Shown one piece after another: positions 1-7,676 of a DNA stretch of 7,676 nucleotides; position 1 is the stretch's first letter, and every line of letters starts with the position of its first letter. Source of the DNA: Mobilitalea sp. (GTDB lineage Bacteria; Bacillota_A; Clostridia; Lachnospirales; Lachnospiraceae); NCBI GenBank assembly GCA_029974875.1, contig JARKQP010000813.1, positions 1 to 7,676 on the forward strand, in the 5' to 3' direction. The notes below the pieces were generated by a model, which was not told the DNA's origin, made no database searches, and saw nothing but the letters and a program-made list of their open reading frames with translations. The position numbers and the translations under genes were made by a program.

Positions 1-1518
1 GCCATATTGCTTGCCCTGCAGGATACCAAAAGCCTTGAGATGAAGCAGCATGGGAAAAAAATCTATGAGGTTATCCTATCCAGTTCCCTAAAAGAGGCGG
101 TGGCTGCTTATAATGCCACGATGCATAACCGCTACATGAAAATGTTCCTTTCCCTCTGTGTAAATGTCATAGAATATGGGGATAAGGAGGTGAAGGGGCG
201 TAATCTGTTTACGGCAAACCTGGACAACCTGAAAAAAGAGATCCATAATGAGGTGCTCAAAATAAAGAAAATCAGGTATAAATTCTCGGGCTTTACCTTT
301 GTGGCAATTGCAGTCTGTGTCCCAATTGATGCGATAAAAAGCTATGGATTATCCATGCTGCCAGAGATGGACAGCTTCTATAACGGGAGACCTGGCATTA
401 TTTATGTCACACTAGTGCTCCTGACGGCACTGCTAATCTACATATTAAACAATAACCTAAAGGAAATGAAGGTACAGCCGCCCCAGGAGCATAGAGTGCT
501 AAAGAAGCTGGAAAAGCTGGAGATTCTGCACAGAGCTTTAGATAACTATACTGAGAAGAATTATTCCAGGATGGCAAGGCTACAGGTAGTTTTAAAAAGA
601 CTGGGGGAAGCAATTACCCCGAGGCAGCTGCTGTTAAAGAGGATGCTCTTTGCCATTGTGGCAAGCTTGGGAATGATACTATTCTTTGTCTACCTCCATG
701 GGGTCAACCGACACAATCTGACCGACAAGGTTCCAGAGCTTCCGAAGGAAATTGTAACGGTAAATGAATCCCAGAAGGAAATGATAAAAGAGACAATTCT
801 TGTATATGTGTCACGTTATCTCGGGAAGAAGGGCTTAGAGCAAGCTGAGATCCTGGAAGAGTTAATCAGACAGGGAACCTTTTATCAGGAAAAGCTAAAT
901 GCTGTAATAGCTGATGAGGTGATGGACAGGATACAGAAGTATCACCTGGAATATTTCCGGTGGTATGAATTGCTTGCCTGTGTTGGTATCGGGATGCTTG
1001 CCTTTTACCTTCCTTATTGGCTGATCCTTTATAAAAAGAGTGTCCGGCAGCTGAACATGGAGGACGAGGTAAACCAGCTGAATGCCATTATCTACATGCT
1101 GATGTACTGTGACCATATCACTGTCAAGAATCTCCTGGAGGAGATGGAATTGTTCGCAGTTGTATTCAAACAGCCTCTCCAGGAATGTATCAATGATTAT
1201 AACAGTGGGGATGTGGAGGCATTGGAGAGGATGAAGGAAGGGGAAGCCTCCCCGCCCTTCAAGAGGCTGGTGGGTAATCTAATCCGCTGTGATGATGTGG
1301 CAATTTATAAAGCCTTTGATGAAATTGCAGCGGATAGGGAGAATTACCATGAACGGAGGAAGCTTGAGAATGAAATCCTCGTACAGAAGAGGGCGGATAG
1401 AGCCCAGCTGCTGTCCTACCTCCCCGCCGGATTGGTATTAATTTATCTGATCCTGCCAATGGTCGTAACCAGTATAGACGCCCTGGCAATGTTTCAGGAG
1501 ATGATGAATACTTATTAA
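1..1518 (+). CDS. Type II secretion F / TadB-TadC-like membrane platform protein, 5' end missing
   Basis: The frame is open to the left edge with no stop, so the true start lies outside the window. TTG at 7 is only the first possible start inside, and no ribosome site can be judged there. Counting from position 7, hydrophobic spans fall near residues 93-111, 130-147, 212-231, 320-341 and 468-490. The C-terminal half has the F-domain (TadC/GspF) pattern: a helical cytoplasmic stretch (about 350-465, including L-L-E-E-M-E-L and a basic R-K-L-E-N-E-I-L-V-Q-K-R segment) leading into a final Pro-containing span. A similar helical-then-Pro-span arrangement at about 30-111 suggests two F-like modules in one chain. 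Such proteins form the inner-membrane platform of Tad/type IV pilus machines, working with a secretion ATPase (not in the window). The pilin-like genes downstream fit this. The family call rests on topology and pattern, not a search. Confidence 0.6.
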   Translation, partial: AILLALQDTKSLEMKQHGKKIYEVILSSSLKEAVAAYNATMHNRYMKMFLSLCVNVIEYGDKEVKGRNLFTANLDNLKKEIHNEVLKIKKIRYKFSGFTFVAIAVCVPIDAIKSYGLSMLPEMDSFYNGRPGIIYVTLVLLTALLIYILNNNLKEMKVQPPQEHRVLKKLEKLEILHRALDNYTEKNYSRMARLQVVLKRLGEAITPRQLLLKRMLFAIVASLGMILFFVYLHGVNRHNLTDKVPELPKEIVTVNESQKEMIKETILVYVSRYLGKKGLEQAEILEELIRQGTFYQEKLNAVIADEVMDRIQKYHLEYFRWYELLACVGIGMLAFYLPYWLILYKKSVRQLNMEDEVNQLNAIIYMLMYCDHITVKNLLEEMELFAVVFKQPLQECINDYNSGDVEALERMKEGEASPPFKRLVGNLIRCDDVAIYKAFDEIAADRENYHERRKLENEILVQKRADRAQLLSYLPAGLVLIYLILPMVVTSIDALAMFQEMMNTY

Positions 1519-1757: not shown

Positions 1758-1762
1758 AGGAG
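1758..1762 (+). promoter_or_regulatory. Ribosome binding site of pilin-like gene 1
   Basis: AGGAG lies 8 nt upstream of ATG 1771. The in-frame GTG at 1762 overlaps this motif and so cannot be the start. This fixes the protein at 166 residues with an N-terminus matching its two paralogues. Confidence 0.8.
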
Positions 1763-1770
1763 TGAACCGA

Positions 1771-2271
1771 ATGAAAACAAATAATTTAAGTGAAGCAACC
1801 AAGGTATTGATCCTTGTAGCAACGGTAATCATTGTATGTGTCTTATGTGCGGTAGGCTTTAAGATAACCAATGAGGGAAAATCCTCTGTGAATGCGGCAA
1901 CCAATAATCTAAATAGCATGACAAGCCAGTATTCTGATATCGACAAGGCAATTTACGACGGGACAACAGTCCAGGGCAGTGAGGTCGTAAACCTGATCAA
2001 GAAGGTGGTCAATTCAGAGGAATATGTAGCAATCCGGGTCAGCACAAAAGCAGATAAAAACAGGGACTACAATTATACCTTTAATGAGGCAACAACGTCA
2101 GGTACAATCACCGAGGCAACCTTAGGTACAAAAAAGGAGGGCAGTGCTGACGGACAGCTGACCACGAAAAAAGCCGATAAATGGTACATCAATCCCCAGG
2201 CAGCCTTTTCCGGAAAGGTATATAAGGATGCGAACAATATCATCATATGCATCGAATTCGTCCAAAACTGA
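1771..2271 (+). CDS. Pilin-like single-span surface protein 1 (probable major subunit)
   Basis: 166 residues from ATG 1771. The N-terminus M-K-T-N-N-L-S-E-A-T-K is followed at once by a hydrophobic helix (about 12-30, ending C-A-V-G-F-K-I-T) and an extracellular-type domain. Shared with the next two genes are G-S-E-V at 69-72 followed by V-N-L-I-K-K, and a C-terminal block Y-I-N-P-Q-A-A-F-S-G-K-V ... F-V-Q. Glu8 followed by a hydrophobic helix recalls the Glu+5 of type IV/Flp pilins. However, no canonical prepilin-peptidase Gly precedes it, so any processing is uncertain. First position after the leader, its own strong ribosome site and hairpins immediately downstream suggest the most abundant subunit. 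Proteins of this kind sit in clostridial Tad-like loci. The pilin role is inferred from structure and context, and an unrelated membrane-anchored surface protein remains possible. Confidence 0.65.
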   Translation: MKTNNLSEATKVLILVATVIIVCVLCAVGFKITNEGKSSVNAATNNLNSMTSQYSDIDKAIYDGTTVQGSEVVNLIKKVVNSEEYVAIRVSTKADKNRDYNYTFNEATTSGTITEATLGTKKEGSADGQLTTKKADKWYINPQAAFSGKVYKDANNIIICIEFVQN

Positions 2272-2333: not shown

Positions 2334-2365
2334 TTCACTTTTTGGATAGGTCATCAAAAAGTGAA
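2334..2365 (+). promoter_or_regulatory. Second perfect hairpin, just upstream of pilin-like gene 2
   Basis: TTCACTTTTTG (2334-2344) pairs with CAAAAAGTGAA (2355-2365) over a 10-nt loop. The 3' arm runs into the AAAGG (2364-2368) that lies ahead of GTG 2382. A competing short pairing, CCTAT (2330-2334) with ATAGG (2346-2350), cannot coexist with it. Position and geometry suggest control of read-through or translation of gene 2. Confidence 0.6.
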
Positions 2366-2381
2366 AGGCACGGGTGTAACA

Positions 2382-2855
2382 GTGAAAAACATGAATCTAA
2401 CGGATTCTGCAAAAATAATTCTGCTTGCTGCGTCTGCAATGATAGCGATCCTGGTATGTGGGACCTGCTTTAAGATAACTGGTACCGGTAGGGCAGGAAT
2501 TAATACCGCTTCCGGTCAAATTACAAGTATGGCATCAGACTATTCCGATCTTGATCTGTCCCTATATGAGGGCAGCCTTATCAAGGGAAGCGAGGTAGTC
2601 AGCCTTATAAAAAAAGCAGCAGGGGAAGATGACTATCTTGCAATTGAGGTTGCAACTCTTGACGGCTCAACCAGGGCATATAACTACCGCTTTGATTATG
2701 GAAAGCTTACCTTATCCAAGGATGGGGCTGATTTGGAGCCTGTCGCGGATCATTCCCAATATGGGTATATCAACAGGGCGGCAAATTATTTAGGAGCCTC
2801 CTACCTTGATGGGAATGGGAACATTGTATGCCTGAGGTTCGAACAGCAGAAATAG
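2382..2855 (+). CDS. Pilin-like single-span surface protein 2
   Basis: 157 residues from GTG 2382. I chose this start, over GTG 2361 upstream and ATG 2391 downstream, because it makes the protein ungapped-collinear with gene 1. M-K-N-M-N-L-T-D-S-A-K aligns with M-K-T-N-N-L-S-E-A-T-K, the membrane helix (about 12-30) ends C-F-K-I-T, and G-S-E-V again falls at 69-72 followed by S-L-I-K-K. The alignment stays ungapped to about residue 104. The acidic residue at position 8 is Asp rather than Glu. The C-terminus has the family block (Y-I-N-R-A-A-N-Y ... G-N-I-V-C-L-R-F). The ribosome site is weak (GGGTG five bases upstream, or AAAGG thirteen bases upstream), and a hairpin lies just before it, both consistent with a lower-abundance minor subunit. 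Pilin identity is inferred. Confidence 0.62.
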   Translation: MKNMNLTDSAKIILLAASAMIAILVCGTCFKITGTGRAGINTASGQITSMASDYSDLDLSLYEGSLIKGSEVVSLIKKAAGEDDYLAIEVATLDGSTRAYNYRFDYGKLTLSKDGADLEPVADHSQYGYINRAANYLGASYLDGNGNIVCLRFEQQK

Positions 2856-2872: not shown

Positions 2873-3319
2873 ATGGGGACAAACCACTTAGCGGAAGCGA
2901 CTAAAATCCTGCTTCTGGCGGCAACAGTCATTATAACCTGCACCATTGTATGGCTGGGTTTTCAAGCCACCGGAATGGCTAAGGATATAAGCGGTAATGC
3001 TATGGGACAGCTGCAGGATTTTGCCAATGACATAAAGGATGGCGGAATAATGAAATTTGATGGAGCCGCCGTGGACGGAAGCGAGGTTATCAATTGTATC
3101 CGTAAGAACCTTGGAGGGTATGGGGATACGGATATTGCCCCGGTCTATATAACGGTAACAACGGGCAATGGTACGAATACATACACAAATAATGAATATT
3201 TTAGCAAGCTCACCTCCTTTGCGGATATCAGATATATAAAGCCTACCGCAAATTTTCAGGGAGATGTGGTGAAAAATGAAAATGGAGTGATCCTGGGAAT
3301 CATATTTACACAGAAATAG
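2873..3319 (+). CDS. Pilin-like single-span surface protein 3
   Basis: 148 residues from ATG 2873, with GGAGGAAGGG at 2856-2865 as ribosome site. It starts 17 bp after gene 2 ends. The N-terminus M-G-T-N-H-L-A-E-A-T-K and membrane helix (about 12-30, ending W-L-G-F-Q-A-T) match the two preceding paralogues. G-S-E-V-I-N-C-I-R-K lies at 69-78, in exact register, and the C-terminus carries Y-I-K-P-T-A-N-F-Q-G ... I-I-F-T-Q-K. The middle is shorter and Thr/Asn-rich. Gly2 precedes the helix by several residues, but I cannot say it is a peptidase site. Likely a minor filament subunit translated with gene 2. As for its paralogues, the helix-plus-ectodomain layout is seen and the pilin function is inferred. 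Confidence 0.62.
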   Translation: MGTNHLAEATKILLLAATVIITCTIVWLGFQATGMAKDISGNAMGQLQDFANDIKDGGIMKFDGAAVDGSEVINCIRKNLGGYGDTDIAPVYITVTTGNGTNTYTNNEYFSKLTSFADIRYIKPTANFQGDVVKNENGVILGIIFTQK

Positions 3320-3333
3320 ACAAAAGGAAATGG

Positions 3334-3749
3334 ATGCTGGAATCTCCAGCATGGAAAGACGGGTACCCAATGAACAATGTGAATAAACTGATATACCTGG
3401 CTTTTTCTGCAATCGTATTCTGCATAGGGACATTCTCCTGATATTCCATTCAAAACAATACCTGGTAACCCTGGAAAGCGTGTCCGGCCAGGGCTATGGG
3501 GACAGGCAGGTCTATATTCAGTACAATCCGGACGAAATGGAAACCGTAACTTATGCAGGGCTCATTGCTACCCTGTATGGTGCTCTGGAATATGATATTA
3601 ACATAGACGGACTTACCATCAGCAGAAGGGAGCACGATCCCGAAGATATACCGGAATATGGTATCAGCCGGACAAATTATAAGAAAAGCTATGTTTATGA
3701 CGGACAGGGGAACATAAAGGAGGTGGTCTACCGGTCCGTCATAGGATAA
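3334..3749 (+). pseudogene. Fourth, divergent pilin-like gene split by a -1 frameshift
   Basis: Reading from ATG 3334 (AAGGAAA six bases upstream) or the in-frame ATG 3370 gives a membrane helix (L-I-Y-L-A-F-S-A-I-V-F-C-I-G-T-F-S) that stops at TGA 3439-3441. Stepping back one base there continues L-I-F-H-S-K-Q-Y-L-V-T-L-E and runs open to the stop at 3747-3749. This gives an expected protein of about 126 residues from ATG 3370. The join completes a normal helix with a basic flank. The ectodomain has V-T-Y-A-G-L-I and a C-terminal Y-D-G-Q-G-N-I segment resembling the L-D-G-N-G-N-I of gene 2, supporting a distant paralogue. One missing C in the CTCCTG at 3435-3440 would explain the break. No classic slippery heptamer is visible, so mutation or a sequencing error is likelier than programmed frameshifting. 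Confidence 0.7.
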
Positions 3750-3762
3750 GGAAGGAGGATGG

Positions 3763-4782
3763 ATGACGAGCCTGGTATTTTGGTCATTTTTCTACCTGGT
3801 CATTACCTTTGTGGCACAGACGATCCTGCATGAATTGGGGCACTATGTCTTTGGAAGGATAACAGGCTACCGGTTCCTGGTATTTAGGATATTTTCCTTC
3901 GCGGTGGTCAAAGAGGAAAAAAGATGCGTGATAAAATATCAAAGAAGTCCTGGAGCCTTTGGGCAATGCCTTATGCTGCCGCCGGATAAGGAAGCATATC
4001 CCTATGTGCTCGTTACCATAGGAGGAGTAATATTAAACGCGCTGACGGCAGCTATAGCTATGAATCTCCTATGGCTTTCCTGGGAATGCATACCCCAGGT
4101 GCATGCCATTGGACTAATGGTATTTTCATTTTACGGGATAGGCTTTGCTGTGATAAACCTAATTCCAAATGGGAAAAGCGGAGCTGCCAGTGACGGAAGC
4201 GTATTAGCTGACATGAAACGGGATACGCTGGCACGTGCCTGTAACCGGGCTCAGCTGCAGCTGGCTTTGGAGCTGATGGAAGGAAAGGTGTATGGGGAAA
4301 TGGACGCGAAGCTGTTGACCCTCCCGATGGATGCGGATCTTACCAATTCCCTGATCGGGTATCATAAAATCCTGGAATGCTACCATTATATGGATCAAAG
4401 AAAATGGGAAAAGGCCTGTAGGTGTCTCGACCAGTTTTATCCCGTAATGGATAAGGTTCCTGCAGTGATCAGGAACGTAATTTTGTCGGAACAATTTTTT
4501 ATAAGCATCCTGCGAAATGACACAACGATTAAGGACAGTGGAATGCTAAAAAGCATGGGAAGATACTTTAAAGGCTGGGGCGGTGACATGAATTACGTCA
4601 GGGTACGCTCAGCTTATGAAATATTTTTGAAAAGAGAGGATAGGGAGAAAATACTCCTCATTGCTGAAAAGCTTAAGAGGAATTACATATACCGGGGAGA
4701 AGCAATTTTTTGCAGCTCACTGATAAAGGAACTGCTCCCAGATGAAGGAATGATGGGAGGGGAGATATGGATCCGGTTTTAA
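3763..4782 (+). CDS. M50 / site-2-protease-type membrane metalloprotease
   Basis: 339 residues from ATG 3763, with AAGGAGG at 3752-3758. The zinc/catalytic motif H-E-L-G-H is at residues 23-27 inside the first hydrophobic segment (about 5-32). The second family motif, N-L-I-P ... S-D-G at 132-145, supplies the third zinc ligand (Asp144) within another span (about 115-136). T-I-G-G-V-I-L-N at 85-92 fits the conserved Gly-Asn region of the intervening span. All active-site elements of an M50 intramembrane protease are therefore present. Residues about 155-325 are a soluble, helical, TPR-like tail without a PDZ domain, which differs from RseP/SpoIVFB-type members and may bind substrate or partner. 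The gene follows the split pilin by 13 bp and overlaps the large surface protein by 16 bp, implying co-translation. Substrate is unknown; single-span pilins or the adhesin anchor are the obvious candidates (inference). Confidence 0.8.
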   Translation: MTSLVFWSFFYLVITFVAQTILHELGHYVFGRITGYRFLVFRIFSFAVVKEEKRCVIKYQRSPGAFGQCLMLPPDKEAYPYVLVTIGGVILNALTAAIAMNLLWLSWECIPQVHAIGLMVFSFYGIGFAVINLIPNGKSGAASDGSVLADMKRDTLARACNRAQLQLALELMEGKVYGEMDAKLLTLPMDADLTNSLIGYHKILECYHYMDQRKWEKACRCLDQFYPVMDKVPAVIRNVILSEQFFISILRNDTTIKDSGMLKSMGRYFKGWGGDMNYVRVRSAYEIFLKREDREKILLIAEKLKRNYIYRGEAIFCSSLIKELLPDEGMMGGEIWIRF

Positions 4783-7676
4783 GGTTTGTGGCAATACTGA
4801 CAGCGGTAATTCTGGTTGTCCTGCTTCCTCTCCAATATATAGCCCAGAGCCAGGAGGAAATCGTGCACGGCAGGGTGGATGTCCGTTCTGCTGAATTTGC
4901 GGATAGGGTGAGGCACCAGGGGTATATTACGGCCAAAATGTACGGAGAATATCTTGAAAAATTAGGGAAGACAGGTGACTCCTATGACATTGGCCTGGAA
5001 ATTGCCCACCCGGTGACAGGGAAGGAAGTGGTAGAAAGAGAAGAACCCCTAACTTTTGTGGCGAAGAACACGGAGGCAGACGACGCAAAAAAATATACCA
5101 CGGAGCTTCTCTCTTCAGGTACGGATTCCCATGTCCACACGGATGCCTGTTATGCAGGACACAGGCATACCGCAAAACCGGTCTATACCCATTATCACGC
5201 CCATAGCGGTAATTGCCAGGTATGGATAACTGATAGGTATTGGGAAGGAGAGTGTGCCAGCTGCCATACTATGTATACCTGGCAAGGGCAAAGCTGGGCA
5301 AACAACCAACCTACCGGCGGGTGGCACGGGGGATGCCCTAACTGTGGACTGGAAGGCTACCGTGTAGCAGGCAGGGACAAAGTTGTGACCGGGTATTATT
5401 GGACCTGCGGGTATAACAAAGACGATAATGGTGACGGGATTGTCGATACCAATGTACCCTATGATGTAACATATGCTTATGGTGCCCAGGGTTTACCGCA
5501 GGGTTTCTCACTTGGAACTATAGTCGGGGGATGCTGGAGTTATCACAGCCACATTAATTCATATGGGCATACCCCGGTCGGACTGAATGGCCCTTACAAC
5601 GGACTTTATGATACCATACAGATCTATGACTATGCACGGGCCCGTGCTAATGGGGTGCCAGAGTATAGTGGTGGCAACTTCAATTACGACTATAGTTTTT
5701 ATTATTATAGAATCAATGTTTGGGCATCCGAGATTATAAATAGGTATGGCGGAGTAACTTGTAGTGTTCCCCAGGATTTAAGGCTCACGTACAATTATAA
5801 GACAACCATGGGTGTTACATCCAGCCCCGGTGGTTGGAGCTACTCTACTGATGTAGAAACATACATTACCATAAAGCTTTATCCCCGGCTGCTGGAAAAT
5901 AACATTGTCTTTGATTATGAGGTTACCCTTACCGTACCAAGTTATGTTTATTCGTCGATCTATGGTGGGAATATGCCCCCCTGCACTTTGAAGTCTGCTG
6001 ACGGACATTTTACAAAAAATTATTTTTCAATCAATGATCTGGCGAATTTAGGCAGTATAACTAATATGGCTGATTATTTTTATTCTTTAATTAAGGATAA
6101 AAACTCCACTTTTGCCAAGGTCTGCCCACTTGTTAAACAGCCTTATACAAATCACTTCATAACGTATGATGATTGGGGAAATCAAATTTATAATTATGGT
6201 TTTGTTTACGGACAACCTGTAATAGGGTACAGGGCAGATGCGGGATATTCTACCCTTGCCGGCGGCCTGAATAGGATATATGCCTATGGCCAGGTAAGCC
6301 TTTGTACATACCAAGCCGGACCTTCCAACCAATGGAATGGCTGCGGCCTTACGGAGGATGTCACCCTGGACTGCGGTGACGTGGTAACCTCCCTGACACC
6401 GACAAATCCCGTACAGACCGTATATAAGGGGGATCCTATCATAACCACGGCAACAGCCACGATGATGGACGGTTCGGTAAAGACAGTCAGCTGCACCGCA
6501 TCCGGTTATGACAGTAACAGCGTGGGTACACAGATGGTTACGCTTACCTATTACGGGTTGGTAGGCAATGCAAAAACAACAGGGACGAGATCCTGTACGG
6601 TGACGGTTACCGTGAAAAGCCGCAAGACGCTTACGGGCATTACGGTGACACCTGAATACCAGGAAGTAGAAAGGTATACGGATCCGTCCTTCACCGTGAC
6701 GGCCGCTTATAGTGATGGGACAAGCAGCCAGGTGTTCGGGTTTAACGTACTGGGGTTTGACGCCAAGCAGCTGGGAGCTCAGACTGTGACCCTATCTTAT
6801 CTGGAAGAAGGTGTGAGCAGAAGCACCACGGTGAATGTAAAGGTCACCAGGCTTACGGCTACCTGCCCGGTCTGCGGCACGGTCTATGAGCTGGACGACG
6901 ATGACGTGGACTGGGGATGCCCTACCTGCTCAGGGGCGATTGTGGCCATCAGTGTGTCCCCTGGGGAAGTCACGGTAAGGAAGGGGGAGACTCTGCCCAT
7001 AACGGTATCGGCATATTACCGGGACGGGAGGACAGGAATCCTCAGCGGCTGGGACAGTGACTATGACCCGGAAAAAATGGGACTGCAGGACGTGACGGTC
7101 ACCTATGATGATTTCACAGCCCATGTCATGGTCACTGTCGGCAGCGGGAAGACCTGCCCGGTCTGTGGGAACATCTATTCCCTGGATCCGGACGGGACGG
7201 ATCCCGGATGCCCCGTCTGCCGTTCCGAGGTAGTCAGCATATCGGCGTCACCGGAAAACATGACGGTAGAACGCTATGGGGAACTGCCTATAACAGTAAC
7301 TGCAACTTTCAGGGACGGACACACGGAAGAGGTGGATGGCTGGGGCACAGATTTTACGGCCGATAACACGGGCGAATTTGACGTGCCCATATATTATAAG
7401 AGTGCCGTAACGAGTGTGCATGTCACGGTGCTTGAGGAAGGGCTAGTCACCTGCCCCTACTGCCACACGGTATATTCACGGCATGAATACCCCAAGGGCT
7501 GCCCGGTCTGCAGCAGGACGCTGACCGGGGTCGAGGCACAGCTCAGGAACGGTGGGAACCGGGTAATATACCGGTCGGACTTAAACCTCCAGGTCATCTT
7601 AATCTACCGCGACACCCATAGGGAAATCACTTACACCGGGTTTACCTATACCGGGTTTGATTCCTCCGTACTTGGG
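4767..7676 (+). CDS. Large anchored surface protein with Ig-like domains and Cys4 zinc-knuckle repeats, 3' end missing
   Basis: ATG 4767 with GGAGGGGAG (4756-4764); it overlaps the protease gene by 16 bp. 970 codons are open to the right edge with no stop. Residues 4-25 form a single N-terminal membrane anchor or uncleaved signal. Residues 27-121 are a short conserved-looking region (Q-G-Y-I-T ... T-G-D-S-Y-D-I). At 122-150 lies a His/Cys cluster (H-V-H-T-D-A-C-Y-A-G-H-R-H, then H-Y-H-A-H-S-G-N-C). C163/C166 with C190/C193 form a first Cys4 set. D219-x-N-x-D-G-x-x-D227 is calcium-loop-like. About 290-490 is Tyr-rich and unrecognised. Ig-like Big_3-type domains lie at about 539-621, 622-699, 725-796 and 822-895, with a fifth cut off from 919. 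Cys4 knuckles are at 700-721, 797-818 and 896-915. Likely a filament tip or cell-surface adhesin made with the pilins; the ligand is unknown. Confidence 0.75.
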   Translation, partial: MDPVLRFVAILTAVILVVLLPLQYIAQSQEEIVHGRVDVRSAEFADRVRHQGYITAKMYGEYLEKLGKTGDSYDIGLEIAHPVTGKEVVEREEPLTFVAKNTEADDAKKYTTELLSSGTDSHVHTDACYAGHRHTAKPVYTHYHAHSGNCQVWITDRYWEGECASCHTMYTWQGQSWANNQPTGGWHGGCPNCGLEGYRVAGRDKVVTGYYWTCGYNKDDNGDGIVDTNVPYDVTYAYGAQGLPQGFSLGTIVGGCWSYHSHINSYGHTPVGLNGPYNGLYDTIQIYDYARARANGVPEYSGGNFNYDYSFYYYRINVWASEIINRYGGVTCSVPQDLRLTYNYKTTMGVTSSPGGWSYSTDVETYITIKLYPRLLENNIVFDYEVTLTVPSYVYSSIYGGNMPPCTLKSADGHFTKNYFSINDLANLGSITNMADYFYSLIKDKNSTFAKVCPLVKQPYTNHFITYDDWGNQIYNYGFVYGQPVIGYRADAGYSTLAGGLNRIYAYGQVSLCTYQAGPSNQWNGCGLTEDVTLDCGDVVTSLTPTNPVQTVYKGDPIITTATATMMDGSVKTVSCTASGYDSNSVGTQMVTLTYYGLVGNAKTTGTRSCTVTVTVKSRKTLTGITVTPEYQEVERYTDPSFTVTAAYSDGTSSQVFGFNVLGFDAKQLGAQTVTLSYLEEGVSRSTTVNVKVTRLTATCPVCGTVYELDDDDVDWGCPTCSGAIVAISVSPGEVTVRKGETLPITVSAYYRDGRTGILSGWDSDYDPEKMGLQDVTVTYDDFTAHVMVTVGSGKTCPVCGNIYSLDPDGTDPGCPVCRSEVVSISASPENMTVERYGELPITVTATFRDGHTEEVDGWGTDFTADNTGEFDVPIYYKSAVTSVHVTVLEEGLVTCPYCHTVYSRHEYPKGCPVCSRTLTGVEAQLRNGGNRVIYRSDLNLQVILIYRDTHREITYTGFTYTGFDSSVLG
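6864..7511 (+). repeat. Composite Cys4-knuckle plus Ig-domain repeats within the surface-protein gene
   Basis: Three knuckles of form C-P-x-C-(G/H)-x-(V/I)-Y ... G-C-P-x-C begin at residues 700, 797 and 896 (bases 6864, 7155 and 7452). They are spaced 97 and 99 residues apart, with one Ig-like domain in each interval. DNA identity persists locally: ACCTGCCCGGTCTG occurs at 6861-6874 and again at 7152-7165. This suggests duplication recent enough, or constrained enough, for recombination between units. Confidence 0.85.

Follow-up and report, generated by a model that had tools for sequence, protein, structure and literature searches.

A predicted surface protein with conserved Cys4/Cys3His knuckles between Ig-like domains in a Tad-like locus of Lachnospiraceae-like bacteria

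KN1 and its knuckles

The 7,676 nucleotides of Mobilitalea sp. contig JARKQP010000813.1 (the window) carry part of a putative Tad-like locus and end in an open reading frame (ORF), still open at the 3′ end, whose product we named KN1 (Table 1). A sequence-only reading had described in this ORF three C-P-x-C...G-C-P-x-C motifs, or knuckles, alternating with immunoglobulin (Ig)-like domains of the Big_3 type. The translation confirms this arrangement: cysteine quartets lie at residues 700/703/718/721, 797/800/815/818 and 896/899/912/915 (K1, K2 and K3), with start-to-start distances of 97 and 99 residues, and an Ig-like domain follows each of the three, the last being truncated by the window end. 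The Big_3 assignment also stands, PF07523 scoring above its Pfam cut-off (38.6 vs 21.2 bits) over three stretches. Profile searches for the ribbon families were mixed: part of HypA exceeded its cut-off over K1 (31.0 vs 28.9 bits), and Rubredoxin at K1 (12.7 vs 23 bits) and RUBY_RBDX at K3 (13.2 vs 26.5 bits) stayed below theirs.

The nearest relative, 85% identical in its best segment, is a contig of a Clostridiales metagenome-assembled genome (DUNO01000066.1; L001). The L001 protein is complete and continues into a fourth knuckle (K4) and then a non-Ig C-terminal domain ending GGEVTI. All 28 cysteines of the window ORF are also Cys in L001, although the codon differs at 6 of them. Residues 696–970 are the most conserved part (93.8% identical; ratio of non-synonymous to synonymous substitution rates 0.13), compared with 65–87% identity for the remaining three parts. 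A chance origin of the knuckles was considered and is ruled out by this conservation.

Table 1. Features of the window, by window position; residue numbers refer to KN1 unless L001 is named (aa, amino acids; AF2, AlphaFold2)
Feature	Position	Strand	Remarks
Putative TadB/TadC-like platform protein, 3′ part	1..1518	+	89% identical over 505 aa to L001 5045–7057
Short pilin-like protein 1	1762..2271	+	N-terminal hydrophobic stretch, conserved position; no pilin family match
Short pilin-like protein 2	2361..2855	+	no family match
Short pilin-like protein 3	2873..3319	+	no pilin family match
M50-like metalloprotease-like protein	3763..4782	+	L001 9011–9988; PF02163 E 1.2e-5, 25.2 vs cut-off 27.2 bits
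KN1	4767..7676	+	970 aa in window; relative in L001, 1102 aa
N-terminal half of minor-pilin-like core	4767..5051	+	common to short knuckle-less proteins, about 1–90 of KN1 profile
Hydrophobic helix of core N-terminal half			residues ~5–27, then ~70 residues; by eye
H-x-H-x3-C-Y-x-G-H-x-H motif	5130..5168	+	possible extra metal site; variable region
Further C..C-x23-C..C pair	5253..5345	+	residues 163–193; variable region; absent from the sequence-only reading
Ig-like segment before knuckles	6387..6617	+	residues ~541–617; boundary by eye, sequence only
Ig-like (Big_3) domain	6624..6851	+	residues ~620–695; best Big_3 stretch 643–691
Knuckle K1, Cys4	6864..6929	+	residues 700–721
Ig-like domain, K1–K2	6936..7145	+	AF2 strands 105–172 of L001 module
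Knuckle K2, Cys4	7155..7220	+	residues 797–818
Ig-like domain, K2–K3	7224..7445	+	AF2 strands 202–269 of L001 module
Knuckle K3, Cys4	7452..7511	+	residues 896–915
Ig-like domain after K3	7518..7676	+	cut by window end; K4 and C-terminal core half lie outside the window

Structure prediction, which the sequence-only reading had proposed as a check, agrees for the Ig-like domains. In an AF2 model of the L001 module (478 aa, 88 alignment rows; mean predicted local distance difference test score, pLDDT, 87; predicted template modelling score 0.43), strand-rich Ig-like segments separate the knuckles, and every one of the four knuckles is predicted to carry a pair of short strands flanking its first half site, in the manner of a hairpin. 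By block, the pLDDT was 90–98 for the Ig domains, 83–95 for K1–K3, 70–73 for K4 and 48–80 for the C-terminal domain. Fold searches with the complete module (Foldseek and VIA) recovered chiefly chains with Ig domains, S-layer proteins among them, and were uninformative on the knuckles; the model of a lone knuckle was weak, and it matched PHD, FYVE, HypA and other small zinc domains, none significantly. Searching the sequences of solved structures gave 18 matches at E-values of at most 1, mostly to the Ig parts.

To describe the family we used three protein searches, made with residues 620–970 (113 matches, the 7,990 best candidates scored), with the downstream paralogue KN2 (best 120 of 321 matches) and with a divergent member (best 120 of 156 matches, from the best candidates scored). 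Together they gathered 281 distinct proteins, 277 of which bear knuckles: 147 have chains of four, 125 have two and 5 are odd. Two of the matches, P0014 and P0164, carry the name of Mobilitalea sibirica, a cultured relative. The remaining four (P0109, P0110, P0111 and P0113) are Ig-only matches. Among the odd proteins, P0116 has three knuckles at another spacing, P0179 two knuckles and a spurious pattern match, and P0278 a single knuckle; P0240 has a large insert ahead of K4, which left its full set uncounted, and P0127 has lost one Cys. The pattern, which counted 845 knuckles including at least one false one (in P0179), demands all four ligands, and losses surface solely as odd proteins. P0127 is the sole clear single-Cys loss. 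Close to the C terminus (final 30 residues), a GG-[EKNRV]-[VIA] motif is present in 128 of the 147 four-knuckle proteins vs 7 of the 125 two-knuckle proteins.

Ligand chemistry of the knuckles

Fifteen of the 16 ligand columns are Cys in 102–109 of 109 aligned modules, and the remaining column, the second ligand of K4, is His in 96; because the collected proteins share sequence words through the mode of search, this conservation is partly selected for, and exchanges between Cys and His are less exposed to the bias. When P0112, a KN2-type protein, is left out, 108 KN1 modules remain. In these, K1 is Cys4 in 102 and Cys3His in 6, K2 and K3 are Cys4 in all 108, and K4 is Cys3His in 95 and Cys4 in 13. 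The two-knuckle KN2 paralogues have Cys3His followed by Cys4 in 118 of 120 (the best 120 of 321 matches). The exchange takes the form of C-x2-C becoming C-x3-H, mostly C-x2-G-H, so that four ligands are retained; on the tree it calls for 2 changes at K4 and 3 at K1, of which starred branches force 2 and 1. For this count the six Cys3His modules at K1 had been coded as lacking the site, the column range starting too late to include it. Throughout, the half sites (C-x2-C, or C-x3-H and C-x2-C) lie 7–17 residues apart and all four ligands are conserved.

Replacement of Cys by His is usual at zinc sites and unexpected for disulfides. Since His takes the place of the second Cys at fixed positions and four ligands are kept, zinc is favoured over disulfides. 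The likely supply of disulfide-forming enzymes points in the same direction: in the genus of the L001 genome, VKOR was found in 0 of 34 genomes (control 3 of 14), DsbB (PF02600) and DSBA (PF01323) not being searched, and the DsbA-like Thioredoxin_4 was found in 6 of 34, 4 of them above cut-off (control 9 of 14). Other exported products of the locus contain little Cys as well, with 0.79% Cys in the SLH-like and 0.60% in the DUF5704 neighbour vs 2.74% in KN1 and 3.45% in KN2. All three observations make a metal likelier than disulfides. Cysteine pairs that stabilise the linkers as disulfides would suit the probable extracellular location, the six genomes with Thioredoxin_4, and the presence of some disulfide proteins and DsbA-like enzymes in Clostridia (PMC12453122); set against four ligands preserved through the swaps, and against the VKOR result, we regard such pairs as quite unlikely. 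The sequence-only reading had proposed hinges in an Ig stalk stapled by either zinc or disulfides. Of these two, the metal staple gains support from the kept ligands and the swaps, and the disulfide staple loses ground.

When 44-aa pieces around the knuckles were compared with Pfam, zinc ribbons or fingers made up many of the top matches listed, all below cut-off. We infer that the knuckles are structural metal sites, most likely for zinc. If they were instead rubredoxin-type iron centres, the arm would be redox-active or redox-sensing. One source labels some relatives rubrerythrin, and there are faint similarities to RUBY_RBDX (E 0.062, K3), Rubredoxin (E 0.13, K1) and a rubredoxin chain (E 0.43). 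However, every rubredoxin-type match is sub-threshold, Cys3His at K4 and at the first KN2 knuckle misfits Fe(Cys)4, and centres separated by an Ig domain would be too far apart for direct electron transfer. Iron centres are accordingly very unlikely, and we found no support for the redox- or metal-sensing joints that had also been suggested.

The knuckles share the C-P-x-C...C-P-x-C pattern, the short hairpins (predicted for the knuckles) and the Cys/His exchange with zinc ribbon and rubredoxin-like domains, such as those of HypA, the zinc-binding domain of DNA ligase, PhnA, LysW and the rubrerythrin C terminus. Known members are mostly cytoplasmic and, unlike them, KN proteins have two or four knuckles each, adjoining Ig domains, and are probably extracellular. 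Also comparable are Lactococcus Llmg_0524 and Llmg_0526, Gram-positive membrane proteins with C-x2-C-x10-C-x2-C for which zinc was demonstrated; according to the available text, they differ from KN1 in that the motif-bearing end is cytoplasmic and there is one motif per protein (PMC4628341). The Ig domains, for their part, recall Big_3 stalks (Leptospira LigA, Bacillus S-layer proteins), likewise tandem Ig-like domains in surface proteins; the matches listed to LigA and S-layer chains cover Ig parts of the KN module.

The variable region ahead of the Ig domains holds further candidate ligands. Its H.H...C[YF].GH pattern is present in 66 of 113 and 71 of 120 proteins. By eye, a stretch of the L001 KN2 paralogue resembles the KN1 motifs at 5130–5345.

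A cassette between the halves of a short core

A profile of the KN family matched 33 of the 34 genomes of the L001 genus at E 1e-3, not all with knuckles, and 31 of 34 at E <1e-20. At the level of the bacterial family, 14 of 150 genomes match one KN member at E 1e-3, most of them via Ig-like stretches alone. In the class, at least 1 of 391 genomes matches at E 1e-20, the match being the query's own genome; since this search scored at most two candidates per genome among the matches listed, the count is a lower bound. The platform-like gene of the locus was found in 17 of the 150 family genomes; of these 17, G001 and G040 have KN1 proteins.

We inspected the KN position in 8 of the 17 platform-bearing genomes (nine stretches, none from the genus list). 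In seven of the eight, it is occupied by a knuckle-less protein of 160–198 aa. The eighth genome, G056, has a 223-aa protein (L085 988–1656) that lacks Ig domains and bears a Cys4 and a Cys3His knuckle next to each other; beside it lies a knuckle-less protein of 172 aa. In L068, KN1 is reduced to a 151-aa knuckle-less form and KN2 retains two knuckles. Nine of ten such short proteins have matches to both the start (~1–90) and the end (~780–850) of the KN1 profile, the weakest end match of the nine being E 7e-4 (L081) in a database of 10 sequences; the KN1 and KN2 profiles were built from long members only. The tenth, L086, matches the KN1 start only, and its end reaches E 0.073 with the KN2 profile. 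Six of the seven knuckle-less proteins from outside the genus match both KN1 ends and nothing between. Within the genus, open frames of 172 aa (G171) and 178 aa (G169) likewise match just the two ends. Most short cores have YGG near the end, akin to the GG-type C termini of KN1.

Matches to both ends with nothing between indicate that the tower (variable region, Ig domains and knuckles) is an insertion between core halves that is gained or lost whole. We conclude that, judged by sequence, these three parts behave as a cassette between the halves of a 150–200-aa core. The G056 protein can be read in two ways: knuckles may have preceded the Ig domains, or the Ig domains may have been lost.

An extra module present in some and absent from other homologues of the same core is a trait of modular pilins, and in this respect KN1 behaves like one. 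In Streptococcus sanguinis, PilB and PilC are modular type IV pilins, each with a small core and a bulky, presumed adhesive module, and a short loop joins that module to a recognised pilin module at its end (PMC8179133). KN1 resembles them in that a bulky module is added to a small core. In contrast to PilB and PilC, the KN1 module is inserted, is followed by a conserved C-terminal segment of the core, and contains Ig domains with Cys4/Cys3His knuckles as joints. Scans of curated families gave no pilin match above cut-off for the core, and for this reason we do not claim membership for KN1 and call it pilin-like only.

The locus and a proposed role for KN1

In L001, the genes follow the order SAF/CpaB-like, two CpaE/MinD-like, VirB11/TadA-like ATPase, platform-like and short pilin-like, and then M50-like, KN1, KN2, a 352-aa protein, SLH-like and DUF5704. 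To assess how far this order is kept, we compared 20 hand-chosen stretches with KN matches (17 from the genus and 3 from other family genomes). Orthologues of the platform-like gene occur in 20, of the ATPase and of KN2 in 18 each, and of the 352-aa protein in 16; gaps fall mostly at contig or stretch ends, and the L069 stretch is without KN2 and the 352-aa gene. The neighbourhood is thus conserved.

Family matches among the machine genes are fewer. In L001, PF00437 (T2SSE-type ATPase; 48.0 vs 24.9 bits), SAF (28.3 vs 21 bits) and DUF5704 exceed their Pfam cut-offs. Below cut-off were the narrower NCBIfam models for TadA and CpaB in L001, PF00437 in the L052 ATPase, and SLH in the SLH-like protein of L001 (17.5 vs 20.8 bits). 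Weighing against a Tad-like machine, no curated family matched the platform-like proteins of L001, L080, L088 and L052, nor the CpaE/MinD-like and pilin-like proteins scanned, those of other loci included. The platform-like protein of the window is above no Pfam or NCBIfam cut-off either and is named for its position. As the platform-, CpaE- and pilin-like genes have no curated match, we call the locus Tad-like rather than Tad-type. The VirB11/TadA-like ATPase, the SAF/CpaB-like protein and the short proteins with an N-terminal helix are shared with Tad (T4c) pili as outlined in the available part of a review (PMC10191384); unlike those pili as outlined there, the locus has no curated platform, CpaE-like or pilin match, includes an M50-like protein and large knuckle proteins, and in genome G001 the A24 prepilin peptidase matches lie on contigs other than that of the locus. 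The M50-like protein, which has a HELGH motif and two His conserved in 14 of 14 sequences, might process the pilin-like proteins. The same part of the review mentions zinc for prepilin peptidase.

Further observations concern the neighbouring genes. A fourth pilin-like gene at 3307–3749 of the window has its hydrophobic start in one frame and the rest in another, through a frameshift or a sequence error. An A-rich tandem repeat with a 14-bp period (1539–1756) separates the platform-like gene from the first pilin-like gene. In L080, positions 9059–13741 encode an exported-looking, knuckle-less protein of 1561 aa between the pilin-like and core genes. The 352-aa protein (L001 15882–16937) has a conserved H301/C305/C326/C334/C337 cluster, each position kept in 16 or 17 of 17.

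Given the N-terminal helix, the Ig domains and the locus, a cytoplasmic location of KN1 seems improbable. Taken together, the data lead us to think that KN1 is probably a modular, minor-pilin-like surface subunit of a divergent Tad-like machine, with an arm jointed by structural metal knuckles. The type IV filament machine of these Lachnospiraceae-like bacteria might instead be a type II-like secretion or another type IV filament system, with KN1 a secreted or cell-wall protein rather than a filament subunit. ATPase and SAF are the sole machine genes that match curated families, and the KN1 core has no pilin match; but a short core with a single N-terminal helix stands beside similarly built short proteins, in an order relative to the ATPase and platform-like genes that does not vary, and we consider this alternative doubtful.

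If KN1 is such a subunit, the 150–200-aa core, with its N-terminal membrane helix and its C-terminal part with a YGG-type end, would anchor it, and a long extracellular arm of variable region, Ig-like domains and four Cys4/Cys3His knuckles would sit between the core halves. Each knuckle would be a compact zinc-ribbon-like hairpin holding one structural metal ion, most likely zinc, and the variable region would presumably bind something outside the cell. Because the arm is inserted in a loop, both of its ends lie at the core, so that either the tower is straight with an N-terminal segment running alongside or the tower bends back. In either geometry, a metal knuckle at every joint could give fixed angles or stiffness. 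Knuckles that stiffen the arm are plausible: they would be folded, rigid joints from Ig to Ig and from arm to core, made without disulfides where disulfide-forming machinery is scarce. They may instead be docking surfaces for KN2, the 352-aa protein or the pilin-like proteins, any stiffening being incidental. KN1, KN2 and the 352-aa protein are grouped in the stretches counted above, and all three have conserved Cys/His clusters; we hold docking to be unlikely.

Cysteine tends to be kept out of the exported proteins of obligate anaerobes (PMC12453122), and repeated, conserved Cys4/Cys3His sites in an exported Ig protein of a probably anaerobic bacterium are for that reason unexpected. The sequence-only reading had not recognised the alternation of Ig domains and knuckles as a described architecture, and we likewise found no description in the open-access literature, a scope that misses most subscription papers. 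The parts are known (a zinc-ribbon-like knuckle, an Ig domain and a Tad-like locus), and their combination, apparently undescribed, is real, conserved and unusual. We tentatively suggest, as a possibility that is less likely than not, that zinc staples the surface filaments of this anaerobe lineage in place of disulfides, that knuckles acting as rigid corners let an Ig arm leave and return to the core, and that gain or loss of the whole cassette makes arm lengths interchangeable. Were its joints to hold zinc, the arm would illustrate a way for anaerobes to make surface proteins stiff in the absence of disulfides, would add an insertion type to the modular pilin-like proteins, and would offer in K1-Ig-K2 a small, soluble unit for a direct look at metal content and rigidity.

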